64,000 nt of DNA from positions 1-64,000 of the forward strand of contig NZ_AP024564.1 of assembly GCF_018409545.1 (NCBI RefSeq), written 5' to 3'. This DNA comes from Allochromatium tepidum (GTDB taxonomy: Bacteria > Pseudomonadota > Gammaproteobacteria > Chromatiales > Chromatiaceae). The notes beneath the pieces are model-generated. The model was not told the origin of the DNA and did not search any database. It was given only the letters and a program-made list of their open reading frames with translations. This document shows positions 657-63,280 of the stretch, piece by piece. A program made the position numbers and the translations under genes. Each line of letters begins with the position of its first letter. The stretch's first letter is position 1.

Positions 657-722
657 GGACGACTCCTTCAAATGGCCCGGCGGAATGGCGGGCTTCAGGA
701 GGAGTTGCGAGGCAGGAAAAGG
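657..722 (-). promoter_or_regulatory. Structured 5' leader of the primase gene (leader family member)
   Basis: The minus-strand RNA carries the box CTCGCAACTCCT, then a hairpin with arms GCCCGCC/GCCGGGC and loop ATTCC, then the Shine-Dalgarno AGGAGT. ACTCCT (705-700) is perfectly complementary to AGGAGT (667-662), so the ribosome-binding site can be closed by a long-range stem. The same layout occurs before seven other genes in the window. Confidence 0.6.
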
Positions 723-2581: not shown

Positions 2582-2640
2582 GTCGGCTCTCCTGTTTGTG
2601 TCCCCGGCGACAGGCCGGGGCTTCTTCACAACGCCCAGTG
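2582..2640 (-). promoter_or_regulatory. Structured 5' leader, divergent member
   Basis: The minus-strand RNA has a strong hairpin CCCCGGC-CTGTC-GCCGGGG just upstream of AGGAG. Outside it, TTGTG and CACAA can pair. The 5-nt CTGTC loop is the same as in the leader at 42.7 kb. The anti-Shine-Dalgarno box of the other members is not obvious here. Confidence 0.4.
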
Positions 2641-2736
2641 TTCGCGACACATGGGCTCCATGTGGAATTGCCTGACAAACAAGGGCGCGAGGGGGAAGCG
2701 CAGCCGGGCCGCCCAGATCCGTTGCCGAACTTGCTT

Positions 2737-7510: not shown

Positions 7511-8068
7511 ATGAAGAAACCGCAGGTCGCCAGAAGTCCATTTATACCCTGGAATAGCCCGCCTCTACGTGTCGATGACTCGGTCGATGAAGCTCAAATA
7601 AAGGGCTTTCACTCTACTGCACTAAGAGGTAGCTACAGCACGAAAAATCTGTCTGAAAGAGCATTAGAGCTAGTAAAAATACGAAAAAAATTGGGAATGA
7701 CGCAGGCGGATTTTGCCATGTCTATCGGCCTGGAAAAAGACAAGATCGTCAATATCGAAAACGGAAGAGTCCGGAATATTCCAGATGAAATTTTGGATGA
7801 AGCCCGAAAAGTTATGGAGGGGGCTTATTACGGACGAGTCAAACCGTTAGCCGATCTTCAAAATCTATCTATGCCCGAGATCTTGGATCGCTGGTGGGCT
7901 ATGATGGGCGTCGATAACGATGAGGAAGGGGCGATCCTTCTGGGGGTCTGTGGACTGACCGTCGAGCGTTGGCGGACGCAACCCAGTCGCCCGGCGGCAC
8001 GCGATATCCTGCGCTACGATCTGATCGCGCGCAAGATTGCCGAAAAATTGACATCCTCCCCGCCCTAA
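7511..8068 (+). CDS. XRE-family HTH regulator, C-terminus altered by an IS end
   Basis: A 185-residue protein homologous to the second half of the product of the gene at 5713. It has an XRE helix-turn-helix (LGMTQADFAMSIGLEKDKI) and a second HTH-like region (AILLGVCGLTVERW). It lacks the sigma-like N-terminal domain. The final residues TSSPP are encoded by the right end of a tnpB fragment, so the native end was lost. It looks like a tandem duplicate of the regulator, later broken up by insertions. Confidence 0.6.
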   Translation: MKKPQVARSPFIPWNSPPLRVDDSVDEAQIKGFHSTALRGSYSTKNLSERALELVKIRKKLGMTQADFAMSIGLEKDKIVNIENGRVRNIPDEILDEARKVMEGAYYGRVKPLADLQNLSMPEILDRWWAMMGVDNDEEGAILLGVCGLTVERWRTQPSRPAARDILRYDLIARKIAEKLTSSPP

Positions 8069-8386
8069 AGGACGGGGATTCCCAGGGTACGGCTCCCCGG
8101 CCGGGCGGTCCTCGCGAACCGCCTTTCCTGCTTCAATGCGGGATGACGCGTAGATCGGCTCAACCACCGCCGTTCCGCCGTCAGCGCCCGCTCCACAGGC
8201 TTTACGTCCCGGACGTCCTCCGGTAGTCCCAACTCACTCATGCACCCGCAGGGCGTCCGCGCCCTGGAGGATGGCCTGGCCTGCCGCCAGGATGTTGCGC
8301 GCCGCATTCAGATCGCGGTCATGGCGCGTGCCGCACGCCGAACAGGTCCAGCGGCGGTCGCTCAGGCGCAGCGCCCGATGCAGGTG
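8048..8386 (-). pseudogene. tnpB: 3' fragment of tnpB with right end of IS1341-type element
   Basis: This is nearly identical to the last 340 bp of the intact element at 61687-63213 in reverse orientation: the GATGTCAA end, guide-RNA scaffold region and the codons for the last part of the zinc ribbon. The match stops at CAGGTG (8386), so all of the catalytic part is missing. Confidence 0.85.
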
Positions 8387-9100: not shown

Positions 9101-10870
9101 TTAGTGACGCAGCAGCGCCTTCTGGGCCATCTGAAAGATGGCCTCGCGAAGCCCGTTCACGTCATGTATGACCCTGTAGTCTTCAAAGATTTTCTGCATG
9201 AATGCCCCCGTATCGGGGCCAATGCCGATGCCCAACACGATCATCCCGTCCTGGCGCATCCGTTTCACCAAGGCACGGGAGTTTGAGGTCCCGTCGTCCG
9301 GCATACCATCAGTCATCACGATCATGACCTTTTTCTCCTCCTTCTGATTGAGGAGTATCCCGCTGACCGAAACCAGTGCTTCGGCCAGTGGCGTCCCACC
9401 CCCATTGGGGATATGGAACCGCTGCCGGGCGCTACTCAGGCGCTCTCCATGACGCAGCACGGAAAGCAGGCGTCCGTTGTGGAACGCCGAAACCCCCAGA
9501 TTCACTCGTGGAAGCACATCAACAGCCTCAGCAATGGCCAACGCACTTGTGTCGGCTTCCTGGATCTGTCCGTCCGTCATCGATCCGGAGGCATCTACCA
9601 GGATGTGCATCGCAGCAGCAATCGTGCGTGCCTCCTCCTGAGCACGAAAAACGCGCCCATCCCCAATCGCTGTCCGTGCCAGACGTGATGCCATCAAACG
9701 TCGACCGTCCATCCGAGCACGCGGACGAACCCGCGCCTCCCCTTCTAGCAGCGTGCGTAGCCGCTGACGCAATGGCCCGCTTAATGCCCTAGCCACCTCC
9801 AGATTGGCATACTGCCCCTTCCCGTTCCAGAAGCGCTCCCAAGGAAGCGCCGATACGGTAGGGGCGGCGCAACCGCCGGCTTCCATAGCCAGAGCCCGAC
9901 CGAGGCGATCCCCCAGGTCTGTTGCCAGATCATCCGATACGTTATTCGCACCGGCTCCCTTCGCCGCCAGTTTCCTCAGTGTCGCGCGTTGGTCCTGTTC
10001 TGACGGTGTGCTCCCCCCCCCCGAACTGGCCCCCTGCTGTTGCCCGACGTCGGTTTGTTGCGTCGAGCTTGCGTCGCCGGACTGGTTTCCATCCATCGAG
10101 GCGTCATCCGGCCGGCCTGAGCCATCGCAAGACGCCCCATCCGTGGCGGATGAAGCGTCCGTCCCCTGTCCATTGTTTTGATCTCCGGTCCTCGGCCGAG
10201 GCTCCGGTTGTTGCGGTTGGCTTTCGGCCTGAATTAGATCCAGGACTGCCTGGGCCATCCGCGCCGTGTCCTCTGTTGCCTCTTTTCCGGGCCGCAGATA
10301 CGGCAAACCCCCCAACAACGCTTCCAGCTTGCGCCGGAATGTCTCAGGGAAGGTCGCCTCAAAGACGCTCTGCGCCTGGCGATCCACGGTGGCCAACGCC
10401 ACTTGTTTCAGTACCCGATGTCGCCGACTGATCAACAGCCAACTGGTCAGCACAACCTCGGGTTCGTCGCCCAGAACCGGTGCGGCAAACGCTGCCGGAT
10501 CTTCCTGAAATAAGTGACCAACCAAGTCGGACAGCACCCGGGCCATGCCCGGAAACTCGGCGATCAAGGCTCGCTCGATGCGAACATCCTCCAGGATATT
10601 GAGGATGTGCTTGGCCAGCGGTCCCTGCCGCGCAAACACCTGAAACACGCCCATGTCGGTGTTTCGGATATGGCTGGCCTCATGCCCGCCCTAACCATAG
10701 GCCTTGGCGCGCAATGACGGCGAACCGTCGATCGGCAGCGCCGGGATTCGGATGGTGTGACCATCCGTCGAGGCTTCATATCCACCAATGTGGATCTCAA
10801 CCCCGAGCTTCCCCGCCAGCGTCTTGACGACGATAGGCAGGGCTTGTTCAACGACATTCATCCCAGTCAT
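9101..10870 (-). CDS. CobT-like VWA-domain protein with an in-frame TAG at codon 60
   Basis: Read through the TAG at 10693-10691 this is a 589-residue protein. Residues 1-59 end AKAYG; after the TAG come GGHEASHIRNTD (a HExxH-like segment), a low-complexity Gln/Ser/Gly/Asp linker, and a C-terminal von Willebrand A domain with the MIDAS motif DASGS and a later MTDG. This is the plan of CobT-like partners of CobS/MoxR ATPases, and such an ATPase is encoded at 11544. The start at 10870 has GAGG upstream within a conserved leader. If TAG is not read through, translation could restart at the ATG at 10654 and lose the HExxH segment. Confidence 0.75.
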
Positions 10871-10970
10871 GGTAATCGCCTCAAAAAAAGTGCCCGGCGG
10901 GATGCCGTGGCTTCGGGTGTGGCTTGACGCTATGCCAAGCTCCAAGAGAAGTTGTGGGGCAGAAAAAGTC
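10871..10970 (-). promoter_or_regulatory. Structured 5' leader of the VWA gene (leader family member)
   Basis: The minus-strand RNA runs T-rich tract, box GCCCCACAACTTCT, a long conserved central part almost identical to the leaders at 11454 and 12808, a hairpin CGGC-ATCCC-GCCG and the Shine-Dalgarno GAGG. CTTC (10951-10948) can pair with GAGG (10882-10879) through one G-U pair. The anti-SD and SD differ from the other copies but still match each other. Confidence 0.65.
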
Positions 10971-11084
10971 GTTGCTGATTCCGATACTTGTGGCGGATCG
11001 CTGGAAGATTTCTCGCCGGATATCGGCACACTGGATAAAGGCGGATCGGTCGAGCGGGCTGGCCTTCGCGCACGTCGTGACGGA

Positions 11085-11148
11085 CTTTTTTTGTCCCGCA
11101 ACTCCTCTCGAAGTTCTCGCATCCCGCGAGGACATTCTGGAGAAGTCT
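11085..11148 (+). promoter_or_regulatory. Structured 5' leader, short form (leader family member)
   Basis: T-rich tract, box GTCCCGCAACTCCT, hairpin TTCTCGC-ATCCC-GCGAGGA (7 bp with one G-U), then GGAG before the ATG. CTCC (11102-11105) pairs with GGAG (11139-11142). The stem sequence differs from the other copies by compensating changes. Confidence 0.6.
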
Positions 11149-11295
11149 ATGAAAAGTGTGATGACAGCAGCGATCCTTGGCGCATTTTATTGGGGTGCCG
11201 GCCAACTGGGGTTCTCAGTTGGCGATGACCTCGGTGATCGCATCACCGATCGGTTAAATGAAAGAGCAGCGATGATCGACGAGTATTCTCGTTAA
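11149..11295 (+). CDS. Small protein, 48 residues
   Basis: The ATG at 11149 follows a leader and GGAG Shine-Dalgarno. The product starts MKSVMTAAILGAFYWGAG, a possible short hydrophobic helix, and ends in a charged helix (DRITDRLNERAAMIDEY). It is divergent from the VWA gene and upstream of the AAA gene. The leader, proper spacing and a terminator at 11421 support it as a real small gene. Function unknown. Confidence 0.5.
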   Translation: MKSVMTAAILGAFYWGAGQLGFSVGDDLGDRITDRLNERAAMIDEYSR

Positions 11296-11420
11296 TCATC
11301 GCGCCTCTCCCCGATATCCGGGTCGCCGCACGGCTTCCCCGGACGTTCCGACGTCAGCACCGCCTTGCGGTCCGCTGACTTGAGTCTGCGGTGCGCCATG
11401 CGCCTCCAGACATCTCCCTA

Positions 11421-11454
11421 AACCCCTTTCAGCCTTGCTGTTAGGGGTTTTTCT
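11421..11454 (+). terminator. Rho-independent terminator
   Basis: CCCCTTTCAGC-CTT-GCTGTTAGGGG followed by TTTTTC. Its T-run is directly continuous with the leader of the AAA gene. Confidence 0.8.
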
Positions 11455-11543
11455 TGCCCCGCAACTCCTCGTGGAGCTTGGCATAGCGTCAAGCCACACC
11501 CGAAGCCACGGCATCCCGCCGGGCACTTTTCTGAGGAAAGACC
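11454..11543 (+). promoter_or_regulatory. Structured 5' leader of the AAA gene (leader family member)
   Basis: Box GCCCCGCAACTCCT, small hairpin CTCC-TCGT-GGAG, hairpin CGGC-ATCCC-GCCG and Shine-Dalgarno GAGGA seven bases before the ATG. TCCTC (11466-11470) is complementary to GAGGA (11533-11537). About 75 bases are identical to the leader at 12808. Confidence 0.65.
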
Positions 11544-12509
11544 ATGCAAACACAAATCGAACTGTCAGTGTTCGTGCCCGGTGCCCAGGGCACCGTTATG
11601 GGCTTCGCGCCCGGACATGAACTGTCATCATTCGTCCCCAAGCCGACGACGGGGTATCAATTCCCCAAGACGGCACTCCGGGATATGTTTACCTTTCTTG
11701 GGTGCTCCGACGGTGATGGCCTGTTCCTCAGCGGCCCAACAGGCTGCGGAAAGACCAGCCTGATCCTTGAGGTCGCGGCCCGGCTTAACTGGCCGGTTCG
11801 GCGGGTCAATGGACACGCACGGCTAGAGCTTCACGAGCTCATCGGGAGCATGAGCCTGGCACCCGTCCAGGGAGGAGGCACGGCGACGCGCTTCCAGCAC
11901 GGACCACTGGCCATGGCTATGCGTGAGGGTTCGATCTTCATCTTGGATGAGATCGATCTCATCGATCCGGCGATCTCAGCCGGACTCAACGCAATACTGG
12001 AGGGAAATCCTCTGGTGATCGCCGAGAATGGCGGCGAGGTCATTCATCCACACCCGAACTTCCGGTTCATCGCGACCGGAAACACGGCGGGGCTCGGGGA
12101 CGATACCGGCGCTTATGCGGGGACAGTGACCCAAAATCTGGCCTACATGGACCGTTTTTGGGTCGTCCAGGTGGGCTACCCGACTCAAGACGTCGAGGAG
12201 CAGATCCTTGAAGCCCGGTTTTCAGGACTCTTGGACCGGCGTATCGCAACGTCGATGGTTCGCGTGGCCAACGCGGTTCGTGAGCAATTCATCGGAACGG
12301 GAAACGCCGAAGCGACCCTCTCGATTACGTTCTCCACGAGAACCCTGATTCGGTGGGCGCAGATCTTGCTGCATATATCTCGATCGCCGATCGATGGCAG
12401 CAAGCTGGAGTACGGCTTGGATCGCGCACTGACGATGCGGGCAAGACCGCATGAGAGAGAGGCGATCATCCACATCTGTCGGTCGATCTTCGGATCGCTG
12501 TGGACCTGA
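11544..12509 (+). CDS. CobS/MoxR-like AAA+ ATPase
   Basis: A 321-residue AAA+ protein: Walker A GPTGCGKTS at residues 64-72, Walker B FILDEID at about 131-137, sensor-1 region FIATGNT near 172. The arrangement matches the CobS/MoxR/NorQ group, which remodel client complexes together with a VWA-domain partner. That partner is the divergent gene at 9101. The DUF3150 gene downstream completes a set often seen on ICEs, plasmids and large phages next to annealing proteins. The client is unknown. The stop codon is followed at once by IS605 debris. Confidence 0.85.
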   Translation: MQTQIELSVFVPGAQGTVMGFAPGHELSSFVPKPTTGYQFPKTALRDMFTFLGCSDGDGLFLSGPTGCGKTSLILEVAARLNWPVRRVNGHARLELHELIGSMSLAPVQGGGTATRFQHGPLAMAMREGSIFILDEIDLIDPAISAGLNAILEGNPLVIAENGGEVIHPHPNFRFIATGNTAGLGDDTGAYAGTVTQNLAYMDRFWVVQVGYPTQDVEEQILEARFSGLLDRRIATSMVRVANAVREQFIGTGNAEATLSITFSTRTLIRWAQILLHISRSPIDGSKLEYGLDRALTMRARPHEREAIIHICRSIFGSLWT

Positions 12510-12529
12510 TCACCGCTGACCCGGTGCGC

Positions 12530-12770
12530 GACAAGCCCCGCCGTTCAGGGCGGGGAAGGATAACGCGGACGGCGGAGCCGTCCTATAGTTCCATTGTCGG
12601 CGATAACCACGCCGACCTACGGCAGGACATGCCGGAAGTTACGCCTGTGGAGATACGAGCAGCGGTTGCGCACTCGGCCCAGGAACCCCCCCGAAGCGAC
12701 TCAGGGGCGGCTCAATGCCGCGCCTCGTCGCCGTAGGAATCTCCGGCCTTCAGGCCGGGGAGGATGTCAA
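12530..12770 (+). mobile_element. Non-autonomous IS605-type remnant between AAA and DUF3150 genes
   Basis: A left hairpin AGCCCCGCCGTTCAGGGCGG (12533-12552) and a right hairpin CCGGCCTTCAGGCCGG followed by GGAGGATGTCAA (ending 12770) enclose about 190 bp without a gene. The right end is the same as that of the intact tnpB element; the left hairpin recurs at about 33017. Confidence 0.6.
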
Positions 12771-12777
12771 CACCCGA

Positions 12778-12809
12778 CCCCATCAGTCCTTGGCTGATGG
12801 GGTTTTTTC
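12778..12809 (+). terminator. Rho-independent terminator
   Basis: CCCCATCAG-TCCTTGG-CTGATGGGG followed by TTTTTT. It presumably ended the AAA transcript before the IS605 remnant was inserted, and now abuts the next leader. Confidence 0.8.
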
Positions 12810-12901
12810 TTGCCCCGCAACTCCTCGTGGAGCTTGGCATAGCGTCAAGCCACACCCGAAGCCACGGCATCCCGCCGGGCATGTTTTACGAGGAAAAAGT
12901 C
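12808..12901 (+). promoter_or_regulatory. Structured 5' leader of the DUF3150 gene (leader family member)
   Basis: Box GCCCCGCAACTCCT and the following 70 bases are identical to the AAA leader up to the GGGCA after the ATCCC hairpin; the last part differs. TCCTC (12822-12826) pairs with GAGGA (12890-12894). Confidence 0.65.
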
Positions 12902-13957
12902 ATGACCGACATCACAGTTTTGAGAAAACTCAACGTTGTGTCCATCGACATCTCCAGTTGGTCCGGCGGGGCTAACCTGAAGAAGGAGGACATCGGGGTC
13001 GACATACCCGACAGGGCCTTCAGTTTGGGTCGGAAGTACCTCATAGCGCCTGAGAGGATCTCGCCGTTTTCGACGATCCGTCGGCGGGCGCGCGAGCGTT
13101 GCTTGAAGGTGGGCACTCGATTCGTTGGAGGTTTTGCCATCCCGGCCGAACCAGAGGTGATGGAGGCGCTTACCTCCGATTTGGAGGAAATGCGCCTGGA
13201 GTTTGAGTCCAGGAAAGCTCAGCTACTGCGTGAGTTTTTTCACGCAGTCGATGAGTGGGTTGAGGAACCTGAAGTAGCCCCGTATGAAGAGCTCATCCGG
13301 GCGTCGCTTCCCAGCCTTCGCTCGATCGAGCGGCGGATTCAGTTCCGCTACTCAATCTTTCAAATCGGGGCCGCTGAGTCGGCTCCCGTTGAGCCACTTG
13401 AGGCCGAAGTCTCGGCACTGAGGACAAACCTCTTCACTGAGGTGGCCGAGGACGCCGGGCAACTTTACAAGTCCTTTGTAGAAAGGAATCTTCGTGAGGG
13501 ACTTGAGAAGCTGGATTGGAACTTCGGTTCCAGAAAAACCCTTCATGCGCTGACCAATCTCCGCAACAAGCTCAAGGGGCTGGAGTTCCTTGATCCGAGG
13601 ATCCCACCGGTCGTCGATGAAATCGATCGCACGGTGAAGAGCCTGCCGGAACAGGGAAAACTTGAGGGAGCCGCGATGCGCAACCTCTGCTCGTTGTTGA
13701 TCATCCTCTCGGATGATCAGCGGATGCTCCAGCTTGGAGAAGGGCTGCTGAACGTAAGCGCCGTCGTCCAGGAGGAGTTCGGCAATTTGTTACAGCGACA
13801 GGCAGAAGAGGTCAAGACGCCGACAGCGTCTGAGACCACGCCTTCAAACGAGGAGGAGAATGAGTTCCCGGATGTCATCTGGGAAGAAGCCGACATGCAG
13901 TCGGCACCTCCGGTGATGCCGACGCTCGACGTGTCGAGCTTCACCCTCGACTTCTAA
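12902..13957 (+). CDS. DUF3150-family protein
   Basis: A 351-residue protein beginning with an SIDISSWSGGANLKKEDIG segment characteristic of DUF3150 proteins, followed by long helical, heptad-like regions (about 90-300) and an acidic tail. DUF3150 genes commonly sit beside CobS-like ATPase and VWA genes on mobile elements. The start at 12902 is set by GAGGA eight bases upstream in the leader. Its biochemical role is not known; a structural or adaptor role in an ATPase-VWA complex is my inference. Confidence 0.7.
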   Translation: MTDITVLRKLNVVSIDISSWSGGANLKKEDIGVDIPDRAFSLGRKYLIAPERISPFSTIRRRARERCLKVGTRFVGGFAIPAEPEVMEALTSDLEEMRLEFESRKAQLLREFFHAVDEWVEEPEVAPYEELIRASLPSLRSIERRIQFRYSIFQIGAAESAPVEPLEAEVSALRTNLFTEVAEDAGQLYKSFVERNLREGLEKLDWNFGSRKTLHALTNLRNKLKGLEFLDPRIPPVVDEIDRTVKSLPEQGKLEGAAMRNLCSLLIILSDDQRMLQLGEGLLNVSAVVQEEFGNLLQRQAEEVKTPTASETTPSNEEENEFPDVIWEEADMQSAPPVMPTLDVSSFTLDF

Positions 13958-13962
13958 CCTAA

Positions 13963-13999
13963 CCCCGACCACGGTCTCCCTTTGGGAGCCGGGGTTTCC
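13963..13999 (+). terminator. Rho-independent terminator of the DUF3150 gene
   Basis: CCCC...GGTCTCCC-TTT-GGGAGCC.GGGG followed by TTTCCTTTG, six bases after the stop codon. Confidence 0.75.
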
Positions 14000-14062
14000 T
14001 TTGTGTCCGGCAATTCCTGTTGAAGCCGAAGCCTATTGCTGAGGCATTGAGAGGAACGTGTG
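13995..14062 (+). promoter_or_regulatory. Structured 5' leader, short form (leader family member)
   Basis: Box GTCCGGCAATTCCT, hairpin GCCGAAGC-CTATT-GCTGAGGC (with a GA/GA internal pair) and Shine-Dalgarno AGGAA. TTCCT (14014-14018) is complementary to AGGAA (14052-14056), again matching although both differ from the other copies. Confidence 0.6.
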
Positions 14063-14263
14063 ATGAAACACAAGCCGCAAGCGACCGAAGGTCGCGCCCG
14101 CTTCACTGTGCTCGAGCGCAGCCGGCGTGCCGTGCTGGCCATGAAGCGCCGCCAGCTGGCCATACGCATCGGCCAGATCGCGGTGTTCGCAGCCCTCATA
14201 GCGCTGCTCGTCGTAGCCGTTGCCGGCTACATAGCCGCTCCGGATCCATTCTATGGGCCGTAG
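14063..14263 (+). CDS. Small membrane protein, 66 residues
   Basis: A strongly basic N-terminus (about 35 residues) is followed by one hydrophobic segment (IGQIAVFAALIALLVVAVAGY) and a short tail, so it is a likely single-pass membrane protein with its basic part in the cytoplasm. It has a leader, AGGAA Shine-Dalgarno and its own terminator, which supports a real gene. The function is unknown. Confidence 0.6.
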   Translation: MKHKPQATEGRARFTVLERSRRAVLAMKRRQLAIRIGQIAVFAALIALLVVAVAGYIAAPDPFYGP

Positions 14264-14280: not shown

Positions 14281-14313
14281 CCCCCAATGGCCTTGCTGTT
14301 GGGGGCTCTTTCT
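14281..14313 (+). terminator. Rho-independent terminator
   Basis: CCCCCAA...GGCCTTGC...TTGGGGG followed by CTCTTTCTTTT, 17 bases after the stop of the small membrane-protein gene. Confidence 0.75.
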
Positions 14314-31282: not shown

Positions 31283-32617
31283 ATGGAAACCATGATACGC
31301 ACGGATAAGTGGCCCCTGCAAGCCACCTCGTATCAGCGGCATCTGATGCGGCTGACGCTGGCGGAATACCGTCAGTTTTGCCGTGCGCTCTCGATCGTGG
31401 TGTTGAATAACTGGCCGGAACTCCACGCTGCGCCCAGCTTTGCCGCCGCCGTCGAACGGCTCATCCATCCCACGAAGCTGCACCCAAACCCGCGTCATCA
31501 CTATTTCGCCAAGCGCTTCTACAAGTTCCCGTCCTATTTACGCCGCGCCGCCATCGAGTTCGTCAAGGGCCAGGTGTCGAGCTACCTGAGCCGCTATCAA
31601 GCCTGGCAAGGCGGCGAGCGTAAACACCGCCAAGCCCGTCCGCCACGATTCAACCCGGTTGCTCAGTGCTATCCGGTGCTGTACCGGGGACAATTGGTGA
31701 AGTTCGATACCGATTTCACCACCGCCACCTTGAAACTGTGGAATGGCAAGGAGTGGCTCTGGCATGACGTGGCCATCAAGTCGGTCCGCCAGCGCCACCA
31801 CACGGGCGTCGTTAAATCGCCAACGCTCGTGCTCAATCGGGACTATCACCTGGCGGTCCCGGTCAATGTCACACCGCCACGACTCCCCGATCACGGGCGC
31901 GTCTGCGCGGTGGATGTGGGGATCAATACGCTGGCAACAGCCAGCCTTGTTTCGCAAAACGGCACTGTCTCGGCGCGCGGTTTTTTCCACCCCGCCGCAG
32001 ATATAGACCGTCGTGACAAGCGCGCCCGGATCATCCGCAACAAAGCGCGCAAAACCGCCAAGCTCTCCAAGGGCTTCGCGCGAACCTGGTATCGCAAGGC
32101 CCAGCACATCAACGAGCAGATCGCCCAGCAGACCTCGCGGCGCGTGGTGAATTTTGCGTTGGAGCATGGCGCTGACGTGATTGTGCTGGAAGATCTGAAA
32201 GGCTGGCGTCCTAAGGCGGGCAAGAAACGCTCGGGCCTGCGTCAGCGCTTCCATCAGTGGCTCCATCGTCGACTCGCCACGCTGATCGAGCAGAAGATGA
32301 CCGAGGCCGGTGGGCGGATCGTCTACGTCTATGCGCGCGGCACCTCATCCTGGGCCTTCGACGGCTCGGGCCGCGTTCAACGCGATACCCAGCAATACGA
32401 ACGGGCAACCTTTGCCAATGGCAAGCAGTACAGCGCTGATCTCAACGCCAGCTACAACATCGGCGCCCGCTATTGGGCCTGGAAAAACAAACTGACCCGC
32501 CGCAAGGACGGGCAGTTGTCAGAGGACAGACGTTCCCCTGGCAAACCGAGAATACCGGTCACGCTCTCAACGCTTTGGTTGCGAGAGCTTGAAGCCCCGC
32601 ATCAATGCGCCGCATGA
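31283..32617 (+). CDS. tnpB: TnpB-family protein lacking the CxxC zinc ribbon
   Basis: A 444-residue TnpB-like protein. RuvC motifs are AVDVGINTLATA (Asp), VIVLEDLKGW (Glu) and SADLNASYNIGARY (Asp). Between the last two, where TnpB normally carries CxxC...CxxC, it reads TSSWAFDGSGRVQRDTQQYERATF without cysteines. This zinc-less subgroup is known among OrfB proteins. It may still be an RNA-guided nuclease, but that cannot be assumed. The extra C-terminal 60 residues are basic. Confidence 0.85.
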   Translation: METMIRTDKWPLQATSYQRHLMRLTLAEYRQFCRALSIVVLNNWPELHAAPSFAAAVERLIHPTKLHPNPRHHYFAKRFYKFPSYLRRAAIEFVKGQVSSYLSRYQAWQGGERKHRQARPPRFNPVAQCYPVLYRGQLVKFDTDFTTATLKLWNGKEWLWHDVAIKSVRQRHHTGVVKSPTLVLNRDYHLAVPVNVTPPRLPDHGRVCAVDVGINTLATASLVSQNGTVSARGFFHPAADIDRRDKRARIIRNKARKTAKLSKGFARTWYRKAQHINEQIAQQTSRRVVNFALEHGADVIVLEDLKGWRPKAGKKRSGLRQRFHQWLHRRLATLIEQKMTEAGGRIVYVYARGTSSWAFDGSGRVQRDTQQYERATFANGKQYSADLNASYNIGARYWAWKNKLTRRKDGQLSEDRRSPGKPRIPVTLSTLWLRELEAPHQCAA

Positions 32618-39066: not shown

Positions 39067-39242
39067 GTGCCACCATGGGTTCTATCCCGTGCCACCATGG
39101 GTTCTATCCCGTGCCACCATGGGTTCTATCCCGTGCCACCATGGGTTCTATCCCGTGCCACCATGGGTTCTATCCCGTGCCACCATGGGTTTTATCCCGT
39201 GCCACCATGGGTTCTATCCCGTGCCACCATGGGTTCTATCCC
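39067..39242. repeat. Eight tandem 22-bp iterons of the TrfA-type origin
   Basis: GTGCCACCATGGGTTCTATCCC is repeated eight times with one variant (copy six). Further copies of CATGGGTTCTATCCCATG occur at about 39339 and 39382, giving palindromic arms CATGGG/CCCATG. A period of 22 bp keeps all copies on one helix face, as in IncP oriV. Short reading frames across it arise only from the repeat. Confidence 0.85.
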
Positions 39243-41619: not shown

Positions 41620-41655
41620 CGCTGCTTCCGGCCTTCAGGCCGGGGAGGATGTCAA
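41620..41655 (+). repeat. Solo IS605-type right end
   Basis: CCGGCCTTCAGGCCGGGGAGGATGTCAA; the TGA stop of the proQ-like gene is formed at its edge (AATTGACATCC on the minus strand). Confidence 0.6.
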
Positions 41656-42311
41656 TTGGTCTTTTTCTCAAAAACCTGGATCGCCGGGTTTTCGAGCACC
41701 ACGACATCCGGCCCGTCGGCCCCGACGCGCGTTCCAAGCTTGCCGGTCAGTGAGGCGACCCACTGGGGCCAGTCCGCCTTGGCCTTCTCCAATTTCTTCC
41801 AGGCTTTCGGAGGCAGCGTGGCCACGACCAGGGCGCTCTCGGTCTGGATGCCGATTTTCATGCCGCTTTTGACAGGCATCGGCTTGGGGATTTCGGAAAA
41901 TTTAACGGTCAGTTCGAGTCGGCCAGGCACGATGTTGTCCTCGGTCAGTGGGGCGTCGATGGGAAGCTCGGGAACCGGCGCCGTCGTTTTTGCAGGCGGG
42001 TTCCACCTTTTTTCGAGTCGGGCTTTCGCGTGCTCAGAGGCCTCCGCCGTGACACTTCCGGCGGGTTGGCCCTGGAGATCGACCCGAGGGGTATCTGGTC
42101 GCAGACTTTTTAGGTAGCGCACGCGCGAGCAGTAGACCGACAAGGTATGGCGGACCTGTTGGGGGTCGTGCCCCACCTCGACCAGGTCGTCGAAAAGCCC
42201 AATTTTGAGCGGCTGGGGCTTCTTCCAGTCGAAACAGGCTGGATATAGGTCGGCGAGATCGAGCAGGGGTGGTCGCGATTTTTTGCGTTCCGACGCTTTC
42301 GTTTCGGGCAT
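41652..42311 (-). CDS. ProQ/FinO-family RNA chaperone
   Basis: A 219-residue protein. Residues 15-100 (LADLYPACFDWKKPQPLKIGLFDDLV...VRHTLSVYCSRVRYLKSL...RVDLQG) are the ProQ/FinO domain, which binds RNA hairpins with 3' tails and promotes sRNA-mRNA pairing. The C-terminal half has a separate beta-rich domain of unknown type. A plasmid FinO-like protein commonly controls transfer genes; here the structured leaders and terminators of this plasmid are possible targets (inference). The stop codon lies on an IS605 end, so the last residues may be altered. Confidence 0.8.
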   Translation of the reverse strand: MPETKASERKKSRPPLLDLADLYPACFDWKKPQPLKIGLFDDLVEVGHDPQQVRHTLSVYCSRVRYLKSLRPDTPRVDLQGQPAGSVTAEASEHAKARLEKRWNPPAKTTAPVPELPIDAPLTEDNIVPGRLELTVKFSEIPKPMPVKSGMKIGIQTESALVVATLPPKAWKKLEKAKADWPQWVASLTGKLGTRVGADGPDVVVLENPAIQVFEKKTN

Positions 42312-42664: not shown

Positions 42665-42732
42665 CCGCTCTTTCCTGACCCACAAATCCTCTTGAACCCA
42701 GCCTGTCGCTGGGACTTGAAGAGGAAATACCC
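42665..42732 (+). promoter_or_regulatory. Structured 5' leader (leader family member)
   Basis: Box GACCCACAAATCCTCTT, hairpin CCCAGC-CTGTC-GCTGGG and Shine-Dalgarno AAGAGGA. TCCTCTT (42687-42693) is perfectly complementary to AAGAGGA (42719-42725). Located 28 kb from the main leader cluster. Confidence 0.6.
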
Positions 42733-43341
42733 ATGAGCAACAACACGCACGTTTCCGTCGACGCCGAGCGCCGCCTCTATATCATCAAGCACCCGGCCGG
42801 CGTCAGCTGCCTGGGCTTTGACAATCTGGAGCAGAACCTGTCGGTGCTTCAAGAGCGCCTGGATCTGTCGGTAGAGGTAGAGAGCGCCCCGGTGGGGACG
42901 CCTGAGCGTTACGCTCAATACGAGCAGATGCTTGATGAGGCCAGTCGCTATCCAAAAAAGATGGCAGGGACATGGTTCAAGCCGAAGACCCCTCCGCGGG
43001 TCCGGCGGATCCTGGAGAAAGCGTGGCGTGAAGACGTCAAGCTTCGCCTTTTTTTCGGCGACGTCGACTCAGGGCGGGACTGGCTGGAGGAGAACGACAC
43101 TTCCGGCCGGATCGGTCGCTCGACGGGGCTGATGAAAGTTCCCCTTCTCTTGAGTGACAGCGGACGCTTCGGCGCTCCGATTCTCGATGACTGCATCGTC
43201 AAGATACAAAACCAAGCGGGGAAGGTACTGTGGCAGCACCGCAAGTACCATCTTCCCGAGATGGAGATCCAGAAGGGCTCGGGGGGATCCTGGGAACTGC
43301 TGGTCGAAGGTCGCGTTCACGCCCGCTTTAAATCTTCCTGA
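42733..43341 (+). CDS. Hypothetical protein, 3' end displaced by an IS1595 composite
   Basis: A 202-residue protein of unknown family; residues 15-60 look beta-rich, and a helical basic part follows (RRILEKAWREDVKLRLFFGD). The IS inserted within the last codons, giving the end KSS. Removing 43337-44551 (IS plus one TAAATCTT copy) restores KSLGEAAAYTAFLSGERYPD and a TGA at 44605-44607, followed by a terminator. So the native protein had about 17 more residues. The leader places it in the same regulon as the primase, VWA and AAA genes. Confidence 0.65.
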   Translation: MSNNTHVSVDAERRLYIIKHPAGVSCLGFDNLEQNLSVLQERLDLSVEVESAPVGTPERYAQYEQMLDEASRYPKKMAGTWFKPKTPPRVRRILEKAWREDVKLRLFFGDVDSGRDWLEENDTSGRIGRSTGLMKVPLLLSDSGRFGAPILDDCIVKIQNQAGKVLWQHRKYHLPEMEIQKGSGGSWELLVEGRVHARFKSS

Positions 43342-53326: not shown

Positions 53327-55162
53327 ATGCCCCAGTATCTCGTGACCCTATCGCTTGGCCCGGTGCAGAGCCTGATCGAAGCGGCGCGGCGCACGCGCGA
53401 TCTCTGGTGCGGTTCCTGGCTGCTGTCGGAGTCGGCGCGCGCCGCAGCGCGGGTGCTGCATCAGGCCCAACCCGGCTGCCTCATTTTTCCCTGTCCCCAG
53501 AACCCCGATGTGGAACTCCAGCCGCAACAGGAGCCGGGCGACAGCGCCAACATCGCCAATATCCTGCGCGCCGAGGTGGACTTGCCGGATGCCGCCGCCG
53601 CCCGCGTCCTGTGCGAGCGGGCCAAACAGGCCGCCGCCCAGCGTCTGATCGACCTGGGCGAACAGGCGCGCGGCCAACTCAGGGTCAAACTGCGCGATGA
53701 GGTCTGGCAGGCACAGATCGGCGACCTGCTGGAGAGCTTCGCCGCCTGGGCCGAGATTCCCACTGGGCCGGACGGCTACCGGCAGGCCAGCGCCCGGCTC
53801 GGCGCGACGCTGGCCGCGCGCAAGGCGACCCGCGATTTCCGCCCCGCCGTGCCCCTGAAGACGCCGGGCCTGCCCAAGTCCTCGCTCGATGGCGCGCTGG
53901 AAACCGTGTTGCCAAAGCCCGAGGATTGGCCCGAACAGCATCGGGATCGTCGCAAGCTCGGTCTTTCGCGCGGCGAGCAGCTCGATGCCTTGGGCGTCAT
54001 GAAGCGGATGGCCGGCCAGGTCGAGCAGTTCACCCCCTACTCGCGCGTGGCCGCCGATCCCTGGATCCGCACGCTCCCAACTGAACGGCAAGCGGCGCTG
54101 TGTGCGGCTTACGAACCGCTGGTCAAGTCGAAGCTGGCGACGCGAGTCAGCGGCAATCACGGTGACTACGATGCGCTTCCCTACGATGCCCAGATGCTCT
54201 ACGACTTCCGTCTCGACAATGCGCTGGCGGCCAAGGGCGAAGACGCGGCCGAGCCGGAGGAGCGTGAAGCGCTCTTGAAGCTACAAAAGGTCATGAAGTC
54301 ACTGCCGGCGGAGAGCGGTGCCCCGGTGCCCTATGCCGTGATCCTCAAGGCCGACGGCGACCGCATGGGCGCCCTTCTGCAACAGGCCAAGCAGGCGGCG
54401 GATTCACGCGCGATCTCCCAATCGCTGCATGGCTTTGCTTCCAGCGTTCGCGAACTGGTACGCCAACACCACGGTCATGCCATCTACTCCGGCGGCGACG
54501 ACGTGCTCGCTCTGGTACCGCTGCCGGAAGCCTTGGCCTGTGCGCGGACACTGGCCGAGGCCTTCGCGAAGGCACTCCAGCCGGTGGCCAAGTCGCTCGG
54601 ACTCAACGCCGCCGAGCATCCGACGCTTTCCGTCGGGCTGGCCATCGGCCATCTGATGGAACCGCTGGGTGCGTTGCGCAAGCGAGCCGGTCACGCCGAG
54701 CATCTGGCCAAGGGCGATACCGAGAAGAGGCCACGCAATGCCCTGGCCATCGTGCTGGGGATTCGCTCCGGCGGCGAACTGGAATGGCGGGCCAACTGGG
54801 ACGACAGCAAGGCGCTCGCCGACCTGGAAGCCTTCACCACCGCCTATCGTGACGGCCGGCTGCCCAGCCGGGTGGCCTACGATCTGCGTGCCATCGACAG
54901 GCGTCTGGCCTGGATGCGTCAGGATGACAGCGAAATCGCACGTGGAATGCGCAAAGCCGAGGTCGCGCGCATGCTTGACCGGGCGCGGGAAGAAGGCGGC
55001 ACCGATGAGCTTTCGCCGGCGCTGCGGGAATTAATTCTGACCCGTGCCGGTGGCCCGACATCGACCCCAAGCCCGTCTTTGGCCAAATTGGCCGATACAT
55101 TGATTCTGGCGCGCTGGCTCTCCGCCCGCACTGTCGCCGATCTGGGAGTACGCGACCAATGA
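53327..55162 (+). CDS. cmr2: Cas10/Cmr2 cyclase subunit without HD domain
   Basis: A 611-residue protein: first RRM-like part LVTLSLGPVQSLIEAARRTRDLW, a helical linker with VPYAVILKADGDRMG, and the Palm GGDD motif in YSGGDDVLALVP near residue 388. The cyclase site is intact, so cyclic oligoadenylate synthesis is expected. The usual N-terminal HD nuclease domain is absent; the protein begins directly with the Palm-like domain and is about 200-300 residues shorter than full Cmr2. The stop overlaps cmr3 (ATGA). Confidence 0.92.
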   Translation: MPQYLVTLSLGPVQSLIEAARRTRDLWCGSWLLSESARAAARVLHQAQPGCLIFPCPQNPDVELQPQQEPGDSANIANILRAEVDLPDAAAARVLCERAKQAAAQRLIDLGEQARGQLRVKLRDEVWQAQIGDLLESFAAWAEIPTGPDGYRQASARLGATLAARKATRDFRPAVPLKTPGLPKSSLDGALETVLPKPEDWPEQHRDRRKLGLSRGEQLDALGVMKRMAGQVEQFTPYSRVAADPWIRTLPTERQAALCAAYEPLVKSKLATRVSGNHGDYDALPYDAQMLYDFRLDNALAAKGEDAAEPEEREALLKLQKVMKSLPAESGAPVPYAVILKADGDRMGALLQQAKQAADSRAISQSLHGFASSVRELVRQHHGHAIYSGGDDVLALVPLPEALACARTLAEAFAKALQPVAKSLGLNAAEHPTLSVGLAIGHLMEPLGALRKRAGHAEHLAKGDTEKRPRNALAIVLGIRSGGELEWRANWDDSKALADLEAFTTAYRDGRLPSRVAYDLRAIDRRLAWMRQDDSEIARGMRKAEVARMLDRAREEGGTDELSPALRELILTRAGGPTSTPSPSLAKLADTLILARWLSARTVADLGVRDQ

Positions 55163-61791: not shown

Positions 61792-63027
61792 ATGATCGTT
61801 CAACGCGCCTACCGCTATCGTTTCTATCCGACGGAGGAGCAGGCCGAGCAGTTGGCCCGCTCGTTTGGCTGCGCGCGTTGGATCTATAACTGGGGTCTTC
61901 AGCAGCGCACCGACGCCTTCTATCAGCACGGCCGGCGCCTCTACTACAAAGACCTCGCCGGGCAACTGAAAGTCCTGAAGCAAGCCCCGGACACCGCCTG
62001 GCTCGCCGAGGTCTCCAGCGTCATCCTACAACAGGCGCTGCGGCATCTGGACGCGGCCTTCGCGCGGTTCTTCAAAAAACAGGCCGGATATCCGGCCTAT
62101 AAGTCGCGCCGGGGCGATCAGTCCTGCTCCTACATGCGCAATGGCTTTACGTTCCGCGACGGGCGGCTGACCTTGGCTAAACAGCGCGAACCGCTCGACA
62201 TCCGCTGGTCGCGGCCGTTACCGAAAGACGCGGCGCCGTCCTCTGTGACCGTCACCCGCACCACGGGCGGAAAATACTACGTCTCGTTCTTGATCGAGGC
62301 GAACGTCCAGCCGTTGCCGGCGACGACCCAGGAAACGGGTATTGACCTCAACGTCAAGGAACTGGTGCTGAGTACCGGCCGGCGCTTTCAGCCACCCAAG
62401 GCGCTCAAGCGGCTCGAACAGCGCAAGCGGCGCTATCAACGCGCCTGCCGGCGTAAGGTCGCGGCGGCCAAGACGGCCCTGGGCCTAGATCCCCAGGCGC
62501 CGCTGCCCAAAGGCACGCGCCTGCCGATCTCCAACAACCTGCACAACGCCCACAAAAAAGTGGGGCGCATCATGGAGCGCCAGGCCAATGTGCGCCGCGA
62601 CTGGCAGCACAAAACCACTACCACCATCGTGCGCGAGAACCAAGTGATCGCGATGGAAGACCTCTACGTCCGGGGCCTGACCGCCGGCGCCAAGGGAACA
62701 GCCGAGCAGCCGGGGAAACGGGTTCGCCGGAAAGCGGGCCTCAACCGGGCGATCCTGGACGTGGGGTTCGGTGAAATCCGCCGTCAGATCGACTACAAGG
62801 CCCAATGGTACGGGCGCACCATGGTACTGATCGACCGCTGGTATCCGTCGAGTCAGCGCTGTTGCCGCTGCGGACACCTGCATCGGGCGCTGCGCCTGAG
62901 CGACCGCCACTGGACCTGTTCGGCGTGCGGCACGCGCCATGACCGCGATCTGAATGCGGCGCGCAACATCCTGGCGGCAGGCCAGGCCATCCTCCAGGGC
63001 GCGGACGCCCTGCGGGTGCATGAGTGA
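61792..63027 (+). CDS. tnpB: TnpB RNA-guided endonuclease
   Basis: A 411-residue TnpB: N-terminal AYRYRFYPTEEQAEQLARSFGCARWIYNWGL, RuvC Asp in TGIDLNVKELV (about 185), Glu in AMEDLYVRGL (about 286), zinc ribbon CCRCGHL...CSACGTRH and final Asp in [10 protein letters not shown]. All catalytic and zinc residues are present, so it should be active with the guide RNA formed by its 3' end. TATAAT lies at 61781-61786 just upstream of the ATG. Confidence 0.93.
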   Translation: MIVQRAYRYRFYPTEEQAEQLARSFGCARWIYNWGLQQRTDAFYQHGRRLYYKDLAGQLKVLKQAPDTAWLAEVSSVILQQALRHLDAAFARFFKKQAGYPAYKSRRGDQSCSYMRNGFTFRDGRLTLAKQREPLDIRWSRPLPKDAAPSSVTVTRTTGGKYYVSFLIEANVQPLPATTQETGIDLNVKELVLSTGRRFQPPKALKRLEQRKRRYQRACRRKVAAAKTALGLDPQAPLPKGTRLPISNNLHNAHKKVGRIMERQANVRRDWQHKTTTTIVRENQVIAMEDLYVRGLTAGAKGTAEQPGKRVRRKAGLNRAILDVGFGEIRRQIDYKAQWYGRTMVLIDRWYPSSQRCCRCGHLHRALRLSDRHWTCSACGTRHDRDLNAARNILAAGQAILQGADALRVHE

Positions 63028-63213
63028 GTTGGGACTACCGGAGGACGTCCGGGACGTAAAGCCTGTGGAGCGGGCGCTGACGGCGGAACGGCGGTGGTTG
63101 AGCCGATCTACGCGTCATCCCGCATTGAAGCAGGAAAGGCGGTTCGCGAGGACCGCCCGGCCGGGGAGCCGTACCCTGGGAATCCCCGTCCTTTAGGGCG
63201 GGGAGGATGTCAA
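62990..63213 (+). ncRNA. Predicted omega (re) RNA scaffold of the TnpB element
   Basis: By analogy with IS200/IS605 TnpB systems the RNA covers the tnpB 3' end, the GC-rich untranslated region and the terminal hairpin, with the guide taken from the flank after GTCAA (TGTTGCGGCGGACTGAGC). The region is conserved in the degenerate copies at 806-1000 and 8048-8260 although their coding parts decayed. The 5' limit is a guess. Confidence 0.5.
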
Positions 63214-63280
63214 TGTTGCGGCGGACTGAGCACGCCGACTCACAGCCTGCAACCCCCGGAAATCCAAGGACACTAAAATC

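Follow-up and report, generated by a model that had tools for sequence, protein, structure and literature searches.

A Family of Structured 5′ Leaders Predicted To Close the Ribosome-Binding Site of Many Genes on an Allochromatium Plasmid

Introduction

Why should unrelated genes of one plasmid begin with the same short, foldable sequence, and what might that sequence do? The question arises in the first 64 kb (64,000 nucleotides [nt], called the window here) of contig NZ_AP024564.1, hereafter C2, which is 175,924 bp long and one of the two contigs of a 3.38-Mb genome. A preliminary description of the window listed eight related leaders, each directly 5′ of a start codon and made up of a box, a hairpin, and a Shine-Dalgarno (SD) sequence, and proposed that they gate the translation of a regulon. 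The closest relative carrying the same gene block was a contig of Allochromatium humboldtianum DSM 21881, from the same genus, and we take the window to belong to an Allochromatium plasmid. Our reading, to which we assign a probability of roughly 0.55, is that the leaders form a plasmid-wide, previously undescribed family of cis-acting structured mRNA elements that control translation.

Results

The leaders form a family with a constant layout

We trained a covariance model (R1) on nine leaders from two plasmids, with only the inner hairpin, P2, entered as paired. R1 found 14 copies on C2, among them those at 2618 (16 bits) and 171310 (22 bits), and it recovered two copies from outside its training set, C2:171069-171131 on the minus strand (55 bits) and C2:142317-142380 on the minus strand (39 bits); because of this recovery, the family exceeds chance. 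A. humboldtianum gave 25 copies at an E value of ≤0.1 in a genome search and 26 in the stretches fetched from it, and a second model (R2) added one more at C10:58874. The chromosome of the window's own genome held no convincing copy in the R1 whole-genome search, which gave two short matches there (13.1 bits, E = 2.6). All eight leaders of the preliminary description can be read in the sequence, the family is larger than was claimed, and the covariance model suggested there has yielded copies beyond the window. The pattern TTGYCCCRCAACTCCTCT at up to 3 mismatches matched 12 places in the 3.38-Mb genome (11 plasmid leaders and 1 chromosomal site) compared with 15 for its reversed control, and the bare box at up to 2 mismatches matched 76 places in the window against 64.9 expected, which is not above chance.

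The leaders are 60 to 100 nt long and consist, from 5′ to 3′, of a U-run, the motif NUGYCCNNCAA, a CU-rich box, P2, the SD, and the start codon. Across 43 aligned sequences (41 hits and two weaker matches), numbered from NUG, positions −3 (U) and A9-A10 never varied and C8 was present in 42; U1, G2, and C4 were also invariant, partly by construction, since the alignment was anchored on TG[CTA]C. A plausible gene start followed 39 of the 41 copies, and the remaining two (L069:2304 and L009:7310), with no clear gene, were dropped from the leader statistics. P2 had 6 to 8 pairs in 37 of the 39 folds, and its loop, closed by C-G in 35, was mostly 5 nt long (ATCCC in 11 copies and ATTCC, CTGTC, and ATTTC in 4 each). 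The stretch 3′ of P2 began with A in 30 copies and had U as its third base in 26 (A-Y-U in 19), with the SD and start codon coming next. In the CobT, CobS, and DUF3150 leaders, an additional hairpin separates the box from P2.

P2 covaries and folds in the gene sense

P2 is established by covariation, as the preliminary description had claimed for the hairpin arms. Standard pairs filled 97.2% of 215 P2 cells in 31 copies, compared with 75.5% for shuffled partners (0 of 500 shuffles as high), and slid partners paired in only 30.1 to 47.4% of cells. Both sides had changed at 6 of the 8 pairs (reached by 6 of 500 shuffles), with 39 such cells in all (0 of 500). These values cover 31 of the 39 parsed copies (L064:1983, L065:4476, window:2618, L062:5786, L062:7151, L067:1818, L009:10096, and L071:1970 were left out) and rest on arms read off the individual fold of each copy after bulges had been taken out, a procedure that favors structure; with bulges kept, the inner three pairs were paired in 96.6% of cells when both arms came from one copy and in 79.4% when they came from different groups. 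Wobble cells were G-U in 28 cases and A-C in 1 (n = 272), so it is the gene-sense strand that folds, as either RNA or sense single-stranded DNA could. In A. humboldtianum, read by eye, C-G has given way to A-U in the second hairpin of the CobS and DUF3150 leaders. P2 is therefore a covarying, gene-sense stem beside a start codon, which is what a structured RNA leader should have.

The leaders are predicted to close the SD

Single folds of several window leaders had an outer stem covering the SD and enclosing the inner hairpin. The predicted probability that the SD is unpaired averaged 0.114 and was below 0.3 in 38 of the 39 copies, in agreement with the earlier claim that the leaders can close the SD. 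Scrambling the box about doubled this predicted accessibility, to 0.225 (21 of 24 groups, P = 0.00025), consistent with a stem in the predicted ensemble that hides the SD. In fixed 75-nt contexts, which exclude the box of the long-form copies, the predicted value was 0.21 for the 39 leaders of three genomes and 0.49 for 32 non-leader ATG starts of this plasmid that have an SD, drawn from mechanical open reading frames of at least 120 amino acids (P = 7 × 10⁻⁷); for the 13 leaders of this plasmid alone, P was 0.002. The z score of the minimum free energy averaged −2.33 and was below −2 in 25 of 39 leaders. As a class, the leaders are thus predicted to close the SD.

The genes behind the leaders

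The genes behind the window leaders encode a primase-like protein (Zn_ribbon_DnaG at 20.8 bits, under its cut-off of 24.9), an annealing protein of the Pfam family SSAP_Sak, a CobT/VWA protein, a CobS/CbbQ AAA ATPase, a DUF3150 protein, and three proteins without a Pfam family, which bears out the claim that they are unrelated. Elsewhere on C2, leaders precede genes for DUF4942, DUF3268 (with a sub-threshold resemblance to the anti-restriction protein Lar), a YqaJ exonuclease, and small proteins, and in A. humboldtianum additionally those for a single-stranded DNA-binding protein (SSB) and many small family-less proteins. From their families, the genes appear to serve recombination, replication, and perhaps plasmid establishment; calling them establishment genes is our judgment of the gene content. 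The window copies are as follows.

657-721, minus strand: leader of the primase-like gene (656 downwards, past the window edge); box 694-706, P2 675-693, SD 663-668; R1 56.1 bits.
2582-2684, minus strand: divergent long-form leader of the Sak annealing-protein gene (2581 to 1451); box 2657-2669, P2 2602-2620, SD 2589-2593; R1 16.1 bits, E = 0.02.
10871-10968, minus strand: long-form leader of the CobT/VWA gene; box 10941-10953, P2 10892-10911, weak SD 10879-10882; R1 28.6 bits.
11085-11148, plus strand: leader of the 48-amino-acid gene 11149-11295; box 11100-11112, P2 11113-11133, SD GGAG 11139-11142; R1 71.2 bits.
11448-11543, plus strand: long-form leader of the CobS/CbbQ-like AAA ATPase gene 11544-12509; box 11463-11475, P2 11505-11524, SD 11533-11537; R1 41 bits.
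12804-12901, plus strand: long-form leader of the DUF3150 gene 12902-13957; box 12819-12831, P2 12861-12880, SD 12890-12894; R1 37.8 bits.
13997-14062, plus strand: leader of the 66-amino-acid gene 14063-14263; box 14012-14024, P2 14025-14045, SD 14051-14055; R1 58.6 bits.
42669-42732, plus strand: leader of the 202-amino-acid gene 42733-43341; box 42684-42696, P2 42697-42713, SD 42721-42725; R1 54.3 bits, fold z score −3.71.

The copy first placed at 2582-2640 on the minus strand really starts at about 2684, so that the original range covered just its second hairpin. The leader at 10871 does precede a CobT/VWA homologue, although the first frame here is 59 amino acids long: the window gene, 9101-10870 on the minus strand, has an in-frame stop after 59 codons, and its 633-amino-acid homologue in A. 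humboldtianum aligns in one frame across this stop. The leader orthologous to that at 11085 has an altered box and SD in L029/L066. Three long-form window copies are 85 to 95% alike across about 80 to 100 nt; the long-form leaders in 10871-12906, near-identical here, differ among themselves in A. humboldtianum. This pattern suggests gene conversion within the plasmid. P2 at 14025-14045 holds a tandem G-A mismatch (GCC-GA-AGC/GCT-GA-GGC) that is retained in A. humboldtianum.

Distribution of the family

At E ≤ 0.1, R1 marked 22 of 142 genomes, of which the window's own, A. humboldtianum, and G081, another genome of the taxonomic family, stood out. The one copy in G081 (28 bits) was the only further convincing one among the 142, and it precedes a homologue of the window's Sak-type annealing protein (BLASTP, 40% over 210 columns, E = 1e−34) that has no Pfam match of its own. 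R2 missed this copy (L071) in the whole-genome search and scored it at 21.1 bits in the fetched stretch. A second G081 site, L104:9261, resembled the leaders in U-run and box; lacking a nearby start codon, it was left out. None of the 20 R1 matches in the other 19 genomes joined a U-run, box, P2, SD, and start codon when read by eye; the weak matches L046 and L048 were box-like stretches and nothing more. R2 at E ≤ 0.01 marked 5 of 369 genomes of the class, and the four besides the window's own were unconvincing.

A pattern search of viral contigs gave 10 stretches, two of them on a contig of the same size as C18 of A. humboldtianum. IMG/VR lists this leader-bearing contig, IMGVR_UViG_2914811602_000002 (29,878 bp; L117/L118), as viral, and C18 is equally long. 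Another viral stretch, L121, had a box (30.8 bits) with no evident P2, and the remaining ones look like chance. In a plasmid collection, relatives of the CobS-like ATPase occurred in 4567 records, all below 60% identity, and a DNA search covered no leader among the matches listed (20 places, of 47 records). As far as these searches reach, the family appears confined to one plasmid lineage and one relative.

A cmscan of the window against Rfam 15 gave no match at gathering score, and no such match fell over a leader in the rest of C2, the fetched A. humboldtianum leader stretches, or the G081 copy. The best sub-threshold match, PyrC_leader over the leader at 13997 (29.2 against 50 bits), was taken as chance, and a further leader at 14309, hinted at by a second weak PyrC_leader match, was not found by unfiltered R2 in window positions 1 to 30000. 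HEARO RNAs above gathering score were found at C2:148507-148745 and C2:152017-152255 (L008:4507-4745 and 8017-8255) and, in A. humboldtianum, at L063:3556-3797.

Terminator-like hairpins upstream of the leaders

Many leaders are directly preceded by a hairpin resembling an intrinsic terminator, as in the following examples from the window.

11423-11447, plus strand: hairpin abutting the T-run of the AAA-gene leader; −13.9 kcal/mol; not in the consensus scan.
12776-12804, plus strand: intrinsic-terminator-like hairpin; its T-run doubles as the start of the DUF3150 leader.
13963-13994, plus strand: terminator-like hairpin separating the DUF3150 stop codon from the following leader; seen by eye, with partial stems in the scan.

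A hairpin of −8 kcal/mol or better lay directly 5′ of the T-run in 28 of 40 copies (L069:2304 alone being dropped), a count made without a shuffle control; about 23 of these look like compact terminators by eye, and some are long accidental folds. Scans of two regions on both strands found 9 terminator-like sites against 3.2 in shuffles (standard deviation, 1.6) and 18 against 10.4 (standard deviation, 3.8), the sites not all being at leaders. Promoter-like sites in the same regions were at shuffle level. In the 100 nt upstream of the leaders, the T-run was the single conserved motif seen, with no conserved promoter.

Discussion

A proposed mechanism and the points against it

The mechanism that we propose starts from an mRNA in which the U-run and NUGYCCNNCAA would be followed by a nearly continuous stem directly before the start codon. 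Its outer part, P1, would be formed by the CU-rich box and YGAA pairing with the SD and the U-rich stretch preceding it, enclosing P2, and this ground state would hide the SD and lower translation. A shared trans-acting factor might read the U-run/NUGYCCNNCAA, perhaps together with the P2 loop, and open or lock the stem, thereby tuning together the output of some 13 genes on this plasmid and some 25 in A. humboldtianum. The regulated set would include the genes for the annealing protein, SSB, the YqaJ exonuclease, the primase-like protein, the DUF4942 protein, CobS/CobT/DUF3150, and small proteins that may belong to plasmid establishment. We infer the translational control, the common factor, and the occasion, which may be the moment when the plasmid enters a new cell. 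The retention of the leader before the homologous annealing-protein gene in G081 supports this reading, and so does the distance from P2 to the start codon, 17 to 22 nt in 33 of 39 copies, which ties the element to translation initiation.

Several points weigh against it. The start codons behind that spacing were chosen by a script favoring an SD. Boxes taken from other groups closed the SD in prediction as well as own boxes did (0.120 against 0.114 unpaired; the own box gave the lower value in 13 of 24 groups, P = 0.52), since C and U dominate the boxes and G and A the SDs in any case. The box-SD duplex was modestly stronger for own boxes (−9.62 against −8.67 kcal/mol), with a swap permutation P value of 0.0105 at the median and 0.074 at the maximum over 20 draws of one copy per group; for the longest box-SD helix, the median was 0.05 and the maximum 0.18. 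An initial own-versus-swap test (P = 0.001) was discarded because P2 arms were part of its 3′ segments and the swaps extended to orthologues. Some copies have long P1 helices (8 pairs at C2:173171, 10 at L064:8376), and P1 pair counts were 82.5% against 74.5%, with double changes at 6 of 7 pairs, in a register that is biased because each copy's own pairing sets it; further pair types in P1 were at shuffle level. The preliminary description saw seven copies complementary to their own SD and took the compensating changes as direct evidence. Six of the eight window copies do form duplexes of −7.7 kcal/mol or better, those at 10871 (−3.3) and 2582 (−3.6) being weak, and the swap results do not sustain the claim of direct evidence: specific, copy-by-copy coevolution of P1 is at best weak. 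Highly conserved positions outside P1 and P2 could serve another function, and it is hard to see where the transcript would originate when a terminator-like hairpin lies directly 5′ of many leaders. What stands of the earlier proposal is the leader family, P2, and the predicted SD closure, and the gating of a regulon is a step that we infer from them.

Alternative explanations

The serious rival to translational control is antitermination of the nut, put, or LoaP kind, in which the nascent box and hairpin would modify RNA polymerase and let it read through the terminators of successive leader-gene-terminator units. It would fit the upstream hairpins, the excess of terminator-like sites in the two scanned regions, the lack of a conserved promoter, and the mere 39 bp between the DUF3150 stop and the next leader, and a box plus hairpin resembles nut sites. 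By eye, however, the box is not boxA, antitermination needs no fixed distance to every SD and could do with one element per operon, divergent genes here have their own leaders, and the closure of the SD would stay unexplained. We regard it as unlikely, while noting that the pLS20 conjugation operon, with more than 20 terminators, uses the conAn system (PMC8955417). A special case of translational control names the factor: the leaders would be targets of the plasmid's own FinO/ProQ chaperones, acting alone or with a small RNA to decide whether the SD is free. One candidate lies close to a window leader.

41652-42311, minus strand: FinO/ProQ-domain protein, putative trans factor (PF04352, E = 1.7e−23), 358 bp from the leader at 42669.

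Both ProQ genes of the genome are on C2 (the other at 169890-170633, plus strand), with none found on the chromosome, and they lie 358 and 436 bp from leaders; the chance of one gene lying within 500 bp is about 0.095. Three of the four ProQ genes of A. humboldtianum are likewise on leader contigs, about 0.5 kb (C19), 0.6 kb (C10), and 3 kb (C26) away, ProQ was present in just 8 of 93 genomes, the window's own included, and ProQ is described as preferring hairpins followed by U-stretches (PMC9037510). Yet G081 has a leader and no ProQ above the cut-off, and six other ProQ genomes (G001, G002, G026, G041, G106, and G111) have no convincing leader: four gave no R1 match at E ≤ 0.1, and the weak matches of G106 and G111 are unlike leaders by eye. 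FinO-domain proteins are, moreover, already known on plasmids, and no second locus that could encode a long antisense RNA to the conserved box was found anywhere in the genome. The proximity is a lead, not a finding, and we consider a ProQ-type factor rather unlikely. CsrA, with one gene in each genome, was never on a leader contig.

The leaders might instead act as DNA during conjugation, as an Frpo-like single-stranded promoter, a priming site, or an operator. Their gene content resembles that of leading regions with Frpo promoters, for which PMC11541004 describes example islands whose anti-defense, methyltransferase, and SSB genes lie on the transferred strand. The leaders, in contrast, point both ways on the plasmid (6 plus, 8 minus), promoter-like sites stay at shuffle level in the two regions scanned, although an Frpo or ssi element should carry −35/−10 hexamers in a DNA hairpin, and the position is tied to the SD, so we consider a DNA element to be very unlikely. 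A translated leader peptide (NTG, then S/P/T-x-N/K-S and a stop) coupled to the main gene is likewise very unlikely. Its frame stops at codon 7 in 19 of 43 copies (18 TGA, 1 TAG), but in many others it runs on, its first codon varies (TTG 23, GTG 10, CTG 8, ATG 2), the U-run leaves no room for an SD, and the third "codon" is fixed at position 3 and variable at positions 1 and 2, unlike coding sequence. Neutral or selfish DNA spread by gene conversion would account for the alikeness of the three long-form window copies; among the remaining copies, the likeness is mostly limited to the box and the P2 fold, the P2 arms covary, and plausible gene starts follow nearly all copies. Compensatory changes already disfavor this explanation, to which we give almost no weight.

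Relation to known systems

SD-sequestering leaders are known from riboswitch expression platforms, RNA thermometers, and ribosomal-protein leaders, which typically serve one or a few operons per genome. They mask the SD with a complementary stretch of the same RNA, as our leaders are predicted to do, whereas here one type recurs over the plasmid and a conserved stretch lies outside the stem. The put, nut, and LoaP systems also have a leader RNA element and many terminators in mobile-element operons, as does conAn (PMC8955417); here, the leader instead stands before many single genes at a fixed SD distance. FinO/ProQ systems (FinO-FinP, RocC) share plasmid-borne FinO-domain proteins and hairpin targets with U-runs (PMC9037510), and differ in the antisense RNA, which was not found in our genome search, and in the lack of a ProQ above the cut-off in G081. 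Frpo and ssi elements (PMC11541004) are foldable and lie upstream of ssb and leading-region genes, whereas our leaders use both strands and promoter hexamers were not seen in the regions scanned.

The nearest concept in the literature surveyed appears to be EGeRS1/EGeRS2 of the Bacillus plasmids pLS20 and p576, repeated foldable sequences before likely ribosome-binding sites (PMC8708921). Like our leaders, they occur in several conserved copies per conjugative plasmid, immediately 5′ of the putative ribosome-binding sites of establishment operons. By that description, they are set apart by their size (five EGeRS1 of 420 to 750 bp), branched predicted fold, and Gram-positive hosts, whereas ours are 60 to 100 nt long, number 14 and 26 copies, combine one hairpin with a putative SD-closing stem, and belong to another phylum. 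Nothing on such leaders appeared in ranked lists from the open-access literature. On what was surveyed, closure of an SD by a leader is of a known kind; its use in a compact form that recurs throughout a putative plasmid regulon is new.

A more far-reaching and doubtful possibility is an establishment regulon at the RNA level, in which leader-gene-terminator units would be closed at the SD and opened together, for example on cell entry, by one plasmid-borne RNA-binding factor of the FinO/ProQ type or another. If true, it would be a post-transcriptional counterpart to single-strand promoters; in the literature surveyed, accounts of how plasmids coordinate their genes for recombination, replication, and protection in a new host center on promoters and upstream DNA regions. 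A single leader type with this many copies and a clearly covarying stem would mean that a post-transcriptional regulon can be recognized in the DNA itself, and its carriers are environmental purple sulfur bacteria, whose switch and factor are open to bench testing.

Other features of the plasmid

Many copies of repeated ends, which we take to be of the IS605 type, occur at 806-1168, 8039-8386, 62851-63222, 12731-12770, and elsewhere, the last being a remnant between the AAA gene and the DUF3150 leader. TnpB-like genes lie at 31283-32614 (weak) and 61792-63024, and a Cmr2/Cas10-like protein of type III CRISPR is encoded at 53327-55162 on the plus strand. About eight 22-bp tandem units (GTGCCACCATGGGTTCTATCCC) occupy 39067-39242, beside an IS66 transposase gene.

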